The position numbers were made by a program, and so were the translations under genes. Below, piece by piece: positions 7,765 through 12,437 of a stretch of 15,716 nt of DNA. Numbering within the stretch: the stretch's first letter is position 1; every line of letters starts with the position of its first letter. The stretch is from Candidatus Fermentibacterota bacterium (GTDB lineage: Bacteria; JAFGKV01), in NCBI GenBank assembly GCA_030620115.1, contig JAUXFG010000088.1, positions 1-15,716 on the forward strand, in the 5' to 3' direction. Under the pieces are notes generated by a model, which worked only from the letters and a program-made list of their open reading frames with translations, was not told the DNA's origin and did not search any database.

Positions 7765-7983
7765 ATGAAGAAAAAAATCCATCCTGAATACCATGAAGTG
7801 ACGGCCGCTTGTGCCTGCGGAAACGAATTCAAGACCAGGTCAACGGCCACAAGGATCAAGACGGAGATCTGTGCCAAATGCCACCCATTCTTCACGGGGA
7901 AACAGAAGCTGATTGATACCGCAGGCCGTGTGGAGAAATACCGCAGGCGCTATAAGCTCGCCACGCCTCGGCGCGAGCAATAG
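7765..7983 (+). CDS. rpmE: 50S ribosomal protein L31, zinc-binding form
   Basis: This 72-residue protein of the large ribosomal subunit begins [12 protein letters not shown], typical of L31. It is the zinc-containing (C+) type: C16 and C18 in ACACGN and C36 and C39 in EICAKCHPF are the expected ligands. The region ending in KYRRRYK is basic, for RNA contact. The ATG at 7765 is supported by AAGGAG with a seven-base gap. Longer readings from 7738 lack both the family start and a ribosome site. It sits between rho and prfA, and rho-rpmE-prfA order is seen in several bacterial groups. Zinc-responsive control of L31 exists elsewhere, but no such site is evident here. Confidence 0.96.
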
Positions 7984-7994
7984 CGGGCACCGGG

Positions 7995-8016
7995 GGGGTA
8001 AGCGCGTGGGGTAAGC
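7995..8016 (+). repeat. Direct repeat GGGGTAAGC x2 before prfA
   Basis: GGGGTAAGC occurs at 7995-8003 and again at 8008-8016, a 13-base period with nine matching bases. It lies exactly where the prfA start should be. It may be the trace of a small tandem duplication or a place prone to assembly error. Each copy carries a TAA. Confidence 0.7.
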
Positions 8017-9108
8017 AGAACACAATTCTACGAACACCTGCGGGGGCTTCGGGAGCGGCTGCGCGAGCTTGAGCAAGAGCTGGCAAGCCCGGCAACTGTA
8101 CAAGATCCATCCCGCTACAAGACAATAGGCCGCGAGCACTCTCGAGTACAGAGAATCGTCGGCGAGCTCGAAAAGATGGAAGCATTGGAGCAACGCCTTG
8201 CTGAGGCGAAGGAACTGGTTGCTGATAGTGACGAAGAGCTTGCTGCCCTTGCCGAGGAGGAAGTCGCCGAGCTGGCGCCAAAGGTCGAGGCCAAAAGAGA
8301 GGAGATGTTGCATCATCTTCTTCCCCCCGATCCTCATGAAAACAAGGATGCAATTCTCGAGATCCGTGCGGGAACCGGTGGGGATGAGGCGGCGCTTTTT
8401 GCGGCAGAACTCCTTCGTATGTATACGAAATACGCGGAGCGCAAGGGGTGGAAAATCGAGCGCCTCAACACCAATGCCACTGAACTTGGTGGGATCAAGG
8501 AAGTAGTATGTGCGCTTCACGGCTCTGAGGCCTATGGCATGATGCGCCATGAGAGCGGAGTGCATCGCGTGCAGAGAGTGCCGGTCACGGAGACACAAGG
8601 TCGGGTCCACACCTCCGCGGTGAGTGTGGCGATCCTTCCGGAAGCAGAAGAGGTGGATATTGACCTCGATCCCAAAGATCTCCGGATCGATGTGTACCGG
8701 TCAAGCGGCCCGGGCGGCCAGAGTGTCAACACCACCGATTCGGCCGTCAGAATCACGCATGTCCCTTCCGGTATCACGGTACAATGTCAAGATGAGAAAT
8801 CACAACATAAGAACAAATCAAAGGCACTGAAGGTTCTTCGTGCTAGATTGCTGGACAGTGCAATCCGCCAGCGAAACGAAGAGCTGGCACGGGAACGGCG
8901 GAGCCAAGTCGGCTCTGGCGATAGGAGTGCAAAGATACGCACATACAACTATCCACAGTCGCGGGTGACCGACCATCGTGTGGGATTGACCCTCTATAAG
9001 TTGGATCAAATTCTTGCCGGCGAGCTTGATCCCTTCATTGCCGCACTCCAAGCCCGCCATGCGGAGCAGCAACTGGCCTTATTAGAGCATGCTCGCCCAT
9101 GCACATGA
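8006..9108 (+). CDS. prfA: Peptide chain release factor 1, start codon unresolved
   Basis: RF1 reads UAA and UAG stop codons and releases the peptide. PVT at 8581-8589 (in [14 protein letters not shown]) is the RF1-type PxT tripeptide that reads the stop codon. GGQ at 8713-8721 is the catalytic loop. [15 protein letters not shown] and the C-terminal [22 protein letters not shown] are family hallmarks. The first in-frame ATG (8176) would give only 310 residues. RF1-like sequence ([20 protein letters not shown] and on) continues in frame back to about 8020, and the usual length of about 360 needs a start near 8011. No ATG, GTG or TTG exists in this frame between the stop TAA at 7999 and 8176. 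The listed 8006 is a GTG in another frame (GTG GGG TAA) that would need one added base or a one-base backward slip. A G-run at 7992-7998 could serve as its ribosome site. Identity is firm; the 5' end is not. Confidence 0.9.
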
Positions 9109-10010
9109 GATGGATTGACGCAGCGCGGCGCTTGACCCGCTTTCTGGATCCTGAAGGCAATACAGGAGCAGGAGTGAACGCGGCATGGAGACTCCTTGCC
9201 GATATAACCGGGAGGGAGTTGGAGAATATCCTTCCACGCAGGGTGCATGAAAAGATGCCCCCCGAGAGTGTTTGTCTCCTTCATAGTGCGCTGAATCGAC
9301 TCGCGGGAGGTGAGCCAGTTGCCTATGTGCTTGGCCGTGTTGGCTTTCACGACATAGAGGTTTCCGTGGACAAACGCGCGCTCATCCCAAGACCCGAGAC
9401 GGAGATGCTCGTGGAAGAGGTGATCGCCTGGTGTAGGCAGCGGCGTCTTCCGGCCCCCTGGATTCTTGATCTGGGAACGGGCACGGGATGTATTGCCAAG
9501 GCGCTCTCCAAGGCGATGCCAGCGTCGACAATTGTTGCCATTGATCGCGCCATGGAGACATTGGAGTTGGCCAAGGCGAATCTTCGTTTTGAGCGCACGG
9601 CGGGGAGCATACATATTGTGGCAAGTGATTGGCTGACCGCCCTGCGGCCTGGGCCGCACTTTGACGTGGTGGCAAGCAACCCGCCATATATCTCGTCCGA
9701 CCGCTTGGCCTCCCTGCCCTCTTCTGTGCGGGAGTGGGAGCCAGAAAGTGCCCTTGATGGCGGATGGCAAGGCATAGAGCAGCTCCAGGCGATTCTTTTC
9801 ACTGCTGCCACCCACATGAAACCCCAAGGCCTTCTGGCCATGGAAATAGGCCCCGAGCAGGCGGAGCACATGGGGAGAGTTCTCGAGAAGACCGACCTAG
9901 GCCATTATCGGATCGTCGATGATCTGGCCGGTCGTGCCAGAGTAGTCATGGCGGAGGGCCCTTGTGGGAGGTCGGGAAGAGGGGAGGAATCCGTATGCTG
10001 CGCAGCATGA
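9099..10010 (+). CDS. prmC: Release factor glutamine methyltransferase
   Basis: PrmC (HemK) uses S-adenosylmethionine to methylate the glutamine of the GGQ motif in RF1 and RF2, raising termination efficiency. The 303-residue protein has an N-terminal helical domain (about 1-75). Next comes the signature [14 protein letters not shown] (95-108) and the SAM-binding [10 protein letters not shown] (124-133). The NPPY motif at 194-197 holds the target glutamine. It overlaps the end of prfA by ten bases, so enzyme and substrate are translationally linked. An ATG two codons in (9105) is an alternative start, and no strong ribosome site decides. The last 18 or so residues, rich in Gly and Ser and ending CCAA, are encoded over the yicC ribosome site and look like non-conserved tail. 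Confidence 0.96.
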
Positions 10011-11495: not shown

Positions 11496-11722
11496 TTTTC
11501 CCCATTGATAGAATCTCAGAGCAATACAGGAATAAGTATGAAGCCATCATCGTTGCCGCGAAAGAGGCGAGAAGGATCAACGCCTTGCGGATGGCAGCGG
11601 GAGGTGCGCCCGAAGGGGCCGTCGAAGCGACGATGGAGGGACTTCGGAGGGCCACTGCCGGAGATGTGTCCTGGCGCTATACGGACAGATCTTCAAGGGG
11701 GATGAACCCTGAGAAGGAGTAG
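11492..11722 (+). CDS. rpoZ: RNA polymerase omega subunit
   Basis: This small 76-residue protein matches omega, which helps fold and hold the beta-prime subunit of RNA polymerase. The recognisable part is PIDRISEQYRNKYEAIIVAA followed by KEARRIN (residues 4-30), the conserved helix pair of the family. The C-terminal half is divergent. The start is GTG at 11492, inside the gmk stop, with GGAGG nine bases upstream. The position directly after gmk is the classic location for rpoZ and strengthens a call that would be weaker on sequence alone. In some bacteria omega contributes to a ppGpp-binding site; whether that holds here cannot be told. Confidence 0.88.
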   Translation: MIFPIDRISEQYRNKYEAIIVAAKEARRINALRMAAGGAPEGAVEATMEGLRRATAGDVSWRYTDRSSRGMNPEKE

Positions 11723-11741
11723 CCCTACTGCCACACAGCTT

Positions 11742-12437
11742 GTGGCGTATCTCAGACAGCTCCGTGATCTCGGCGAGGAGGAGCTCTTTTTCGACAAGCC
11801 CATGCTTCTGACGAGGGATCAGCCCATTTCCCCGGAGCCCGGCGACGCCGGTAGAGCGCTCCAGAGGATTGCGGATCAGATCAGGGAGTGCACCGCGTGC
11901 CCCCTGCACAGGACTCGACGAAACACGGTCCCCGGGGCCGGCAGCTATGCAAGCGGTCTTGTACTGGTTGGGGAAGCTCCAGGCGGGCAAGAAGATCAGC
12001 AGGGCTTTCCTTTTGTGGGTGTGAGCGGGAAATTGCTGAGACGCCTATTCCTTCTGGCGGGGATTCCCGACGATCAGTATTTCCTGCTGAATCTGGTCAA
12101 GTGCAGGCCACCGGGGAATCGAGACCCTGAGCCAGAGGAAGTGGAGGCTTGTAGGCGCTTCACCGAGGAGCAGATCAGGATCTTGCGGCCAAGACTGATT
12201 GTAGGTTTGGGCCGGTTTGCCGGCCGCTATCTGTTGAAAAGCGAGGGGTTGTCGCTTTGGCAGATGAGGGGAAAGGTTCACATGCGAAACGAGATCCCCG
12301 TCGTCGCCACATACCATCCCTCGGCCTTGCTCCACCAGGTGGCCACGCGACCGGACGCGTGGCGCGACATAAAGATGATACGTCGGACCGCGACGGAATT
12401 GGGGATTCTCTCTCCGAGACCCCAGAAGGATAGCTGA
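11742..12437 (+). CDS. Family 4 uracil-DNA glycosylase (iron-sulfur type)
   Basis: This enzyme removes uracil from DNA, starting base-excision repair of deaminated cytosine. Motif GEAPGGQEDQQGFPFVG (77-93) contains the family 4 active-site block, and YHPSALLH (191-198) is the second. Four cysteines suit a 4Fe-4S cluster: C50 and C53 in CTACPL, C121 in NLVKCRPPGNR, and C137. The 231-residue length is typical. GTG at 11742 is the only ATG, GTG or TTG in this frame after the stop at 11703, but it has no ribosome site at normal distance. A good AAGGAG (11714-11719) sits 22 bases upstream, so the true start may be an unusual codon nearer 11727, or translation may be coupled to rpoZ. dnaB begins two bases after its stop. 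Confidence 0.92.
   Translation: MAYLRQLRDLGEEELFFDKPMLLTRDQPISPEPGDAGRALQRIADQIRECTACPLHRTRRNTVPGAGSYASGLVLVGEAPGGQEDQQGFPFVGVSGKLLRRLFLLAGIPDDQYFLLNLVKCRPPGNRDPEPEEVEACRRFTEEQIRILRPRLIVGLGRFAGRYLLKSEGLSLWQMRGKVHMRNEIPVVATYHPSALLHQVATRPDAWRDIKMIRRTATELGILSPRPQKDS

Follow-up and report, generated by a model that had tools for sequence, protein, structure and literature searches.

Bacterial peptide chain release factor 1 (RF1, product of prfA) ends translation at UAG and UAA; TAG is read by RF1 alone, and UAA is also read by RF2 (product of prfB). The autoregulatory +1 programmed frameshift of prfB couples a CUU UGA C slip site to a Shine-Dalgarno-like element upstream of it and is conserved between related genomes. 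Programmed -1 frameshifting uses a slippery heptamer of the form X XXY YYZ together with a downstream structure. A survey of more than 12,000 bacterial genomes listed 34 with a prfA gene that would need a frameshift, and found no conserved elements; programmed frameshifting in prfA was judged unlikely, none being known there (PMC12421855). According to a review, no RF1 gene is known in which an early in-frame stop plays the corresponding part (PMC5009743).

Here we describe prfA in a window of 15,716 nucleotides (the whole stretch of DNA analysed; contig JAUXFG010000088.1) from a Candidatus Fermentibacterota bacterium. The locus is like the surveyed prfA 'pseudogenes' in belonging to an isolated genome, in needing a frameshift and in lacking a conserved element. 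The survey cases mostly concerned one genome per species. Their premature stops lie at varied places, whereas here the break falls within the first codons (PMC12421855).

Genomes and loci compared

The relatives compared were G001 and G002, two further genomes from the phylum, whose RF1s are 66-69% identical. A search for closer relatives found none in viral contigs, and identity in genome_contigs did not exceed 59%. The two genomes and loci from other groups together provided 109 other RF1 loci. Open reading frames from 0.82 Mb of G001 and two G002 contigs were compared with 0.51 Mb of the present genome.

RF1 identity and gene neighbourhood

The frame read from 8020 matched TIGR00019 over residues 2-355, equivalent to model positions 5-358 of 361. 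Scores were 490.7 bits for TIGR00019 (cut-off 423.25) and 497.8 for NF001859 (cut-off 400), as for a whole-protein RF1 equivalog. The protein frame is intact for approximately 360 codons, and its translation carries the GGQ catalytic motif (GPGGQSVN) and an RF1-type PxT stop-recognition motif (PVT). The locus thus resembles bacterial PrfA (TIGR00019, NF001859, PF03462 and PF00472) in its full-length match above curated cut-offs, in both motifs and in its gene order, rho-rpmE-prfA-prmC; it is unlike PrfA in having no in-frame standard start codon in the present consensus. The usual neighbour downstream of prfA is prmC, which is intact here. Upstream, rpmE ends with TAG and shares the frame of prfA; readthrough fusion of the two was rejected, as two stops (TAG 7981 and TAA 7999) intervene despite the shared frame.

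A single RF1 was found in the 4.1 Mb genome. The remaining matches were RF2 and a short RF-like match only, and a second RF1 gene was rejected on this basis. In a 514 kb sample of the genome, TAG ended about a third of long genes (108/303). Because this is the only RF1 of the genome and TAG ends around one third of the sampled genes, RF1 must be expressed, and a dead RF1 is not plausible. Most likely, both prfA, as an essential RF1 gene, and its neighbourhood are ordinary.

Reading frame and initiation region of prfA

Coordinates of the features are given in Table 1. The stop preceding the prfA frame is TAA 7999-8001, and in register the sequence reads CCG GGG GGG TAA(7999-8001) GCG CGT GGG GTA AGC AGA ACA CAA TTC TAC GAA CAC CTG. 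The first ATG, GTG or TTG in this frame is ATG 8176. Both the coordinates and the reading of this start-free interval in the initial annotation were correct, as was its placing of RF1-like sequence from approximately 8020, upstream of the first standard start; the TIGR00019 match begins near that position. It put the cost of a start at 8176 at about 55 N-terminal residues; in the profile matches the loss is about 45-57 model positions, varying with the model used. An automatic caller would place the RF1 start at 8176, and most of domain 1 would be lost from the annotation. A stretch of 58 codons free of ATG, GTG and TTG is not rare alone (approximately 6% expected by our estimate, assuming uniform codons); the unusual part is that the stretch spans a conserved N-terminus.

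Table 1. Features around the start of prfA, in window coordinates.
Feature	Position	Strand	Basis
rpmE, ribosomal protein L31, upstream of prfA	7765..7983	+	NCBIfam L31 match above cut-off
G run resembling a Shine-Dalgarno site (GGGGGGGT), some 7 nt upstream of GTG 8006	7992..7999	+	Duplex energy
First copy of 9-base direct repeat GGGGTAAGC	7995..8003	+	Sequence reading
Open frame of prfA (RF1), stop ending at 9108	8002..9108	+	No ATG/GTG/TTG before 8176; RF1 similarity full-length from about 8020
GTG GGG TAA, best-placed initiation codon, out of the prfA frame and closed at its third codon	8006..8014	+	Sequence, duplex energy
Second copy of GGGGTAAGC, 13 nt downstream of the first, containing the four-G run	8008..8016	+	Sequence reading
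prmC, release factor glutamine methyltransferase	9099..10010	+	NCBIfam RF_mod_PrmC above cut-off

Duplex energies were calculated against the canonical 16S tail. Ahead of GTG 8006 the G run gave -11.3 kcal/mol, and an equally good Shine-Dalgarno site was found at 0.8% of random GTGs. The frame opened by GTG 8006-8008 reaches TAA 8012-8014 at codon 3. At CTG 8038 there is no Shine-Dalgarno site (-0.1 kcal/mol), and at ATG 8176 the site is weak (-3.7 kcal/mol). GTG 8006 is thus the best site for initiation; what needs explaining is how its frame connects to the rest of the gene. The true prfA start lies almost certainly just upstream of 8020, and most likely at or beside GTG 8006, behind the G-rich Shine-Dalgarno site.

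The two copies of GGGGTAAGC (7995-8016) straddle the expected prfA start and may mark a small duplication or an assembly-sensitive spot. A tandem insertion at the repeat was rejected, since a single-copy version likewise has no start and the break is left unexplained.

Start of prfA in other genomes

The prfA start is GTG in G001 and a cluster of GTG and ATG in G002, all ordinary and in frame. Each stands behind GGGGAG, at the same position relative to the conserved first leucine, and the early stop in prfA is absent from both genomes. A standard in-frame start at the RF1 N-terminus, present in G001 and G002, is absent here; it was missing within two codons of the aligned start in 0/109 other RF1 loci. 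As all 109 loci, those of G001 and G002 among them, have standard starts, the arrangement is private to one assembly. The comparison with relatives called for in the initial annotation shows intact in-frame starts in both; at only 66-69% identity the four-G run is not comparable letter by letter.

Accuracy of the assembly

Single-base frameshifts inside genes numbered none in approximately 55-65 kb of coding DNA matched to the relatives. The sole out-of-frame event was a 29-base deletion, located in a hypothetical gene, and with one such deletion in the approximately 55-65 kb compared, a generally error-ridden assembly was not supported. Of 111 non-edge orthologue pairs, just two (prfA and polA) had a standard start in the relative but none in the present genome; other flagged cases resembled gene-overlap, antisense or contig-edge artefacts. 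A coding-potential frameshift scan returned 44 frame transitions, nearly all with stop and start codons nearby, as at gene overlaps. Because single-base indels are uncommon in the assembly, a consensus error exactly at the prfA start is not expected a priori, and an assembly without a general excess of indels leaves real biology some scope. That a metagenome assembly should contain one miscalled gene is in itself unremarkable.

The 29-base deletion, relative to G001, lies on the minus strand at about 950 of L126 (G000:C203, near 46950) and may be a pseudogene, a restart or an error.

Explanations for the missing start

Most likely, with a probability of roughly 0.74, an ordinary RF1 gene is represented here with a one-letter error or strain variant near its start. 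A one-letter difference in the short stretch upstream of 8020 would uncouple the start from the prfA frame in the consensus. The difference could have come from an assembly or sequencing error, from collapse at the small GGGGTAAGC repeat or from a variant in part of the population, and is presumably absent from working cells. The in-frame starts are intact in both relatives; this favours an error or a change at strain level, and the comparison indicates an ordinary gene whose start is broken in one assembly. The initial annotation listed the loss of one base among its options, but a substitution could also remove the start.

Real autoregulatory -1 slippage, as an RF1 counterpart of the RF2 frameshift, is very unlikely. 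Translation would begin at GTG 8006 and, under a shortage of release factor, stall at the codon-3 UAA; the glycine tRNA would then slip from its GGG back by one base to the overlapping GGG, bringing the ribosome into the RF1 frame. GTG GGG TAA stands behind a strong Shine-Dalgarno site, the register for re-pairing on the G run is perfect, so that chemistry alone cannot dismiss a slip back on GGG, and the stop at codon 3 is one read by RF1 itself. The lineage already has a +1 frameshift in prfB (CTT TGA, 3/3 genomes), and indels are not a general feature of the assembly. However, the arrangement is not conserved in G001, in G002 or elsewhere among the 109 RF1 loci, and UAA, being read by RF2 too, would make a blunt sensor. 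No X XXY YYZ heptamer occurs in 8002-8030, RNA folding is no better than in shuffles (z-scores +1.45 and -0.29) and the prfA start region has no Rfam match; an RNA element was rejected on the last two results. Programmed slippage, one form that the unusual decoding allowed for in the initial annotation could take, is thus left with no positive support from heptamer, structure or conservation. As in prfB, an early stop here separates the start of a release factor gene from its main frame, but the shift would run in the opposite direction, the stop is UAA and not UGA, the slip site is another one and conservation is absent; the prfB-type motif sits in prfB instead, with GTG GGG TAA in its place in prfA. 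We accordingly give little credence to autoregulation of RF1 through a -1 slip on GGG where UAA forms the third codon, by which one genome would regulate both release factors through frameshifts in opposite directions. If correct as written, the sequence could be the first RF1 gene under the control of its own frameshift.

Use of a rare in-frame start, for example GUA 8011 or CUG 8038, would leave prfA intact as written and is unlikely. CTG starts seem to be in use elsewhere in the genome (udg 11709 and polA), and GTA 8011 falls, by extrapolation, near position 1 of the RF1 model and shares the G run 7992-7999. Against this, GTA has two mismatches to AUG, and its spacing from the G run is longer, approximately 11 nt. 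CTG 8038 is the only near-cognate in-frame codon close to the expected start, with no other one-mismatch codon in the prfA frame at 8002-8040; a start there would trim the first helix, and CTG has no genome-wide link to Shine-Dalgarno sites. The rare-start option of the initial annotation fails at this point, as no in-frame codon one mismatch from ATG has a good site where the start is expected. An internal start at ATG 8176, truncating RF1 by most of domain 1, is scarcely credible: the codon is the first in-frame standard start, but its ribosome-binding site is poor, the codons upstream remain RF1-like back to 8020 and that region is kept in all compared RF1s.

Frameshift site of prfB and CTG starts

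The classical CTT TGA +1 site was located in prfB of all three genomes of the phylum (L121, L122 and L123). CTG starts in the present genome look real but rare. The family 4 uracil-DNA glycosylase gene udg (11709-12437 of the window, + strand) probably starts at CTG 11709, behind GGGGGA (-11.9 kcal/mol). G001 has TTG at exactly the aligned position. No ribosome-binding site precedes GTG 11742, the first standard start. In polA (L121, G000:C203, minus strand), which has no standard in-frame start, an in-frame CTG stands at a good distance from AAGGAGGT (-12.6 kcal/mol), and an out-of-frame ATG lies only 1 nt after GGAGG.
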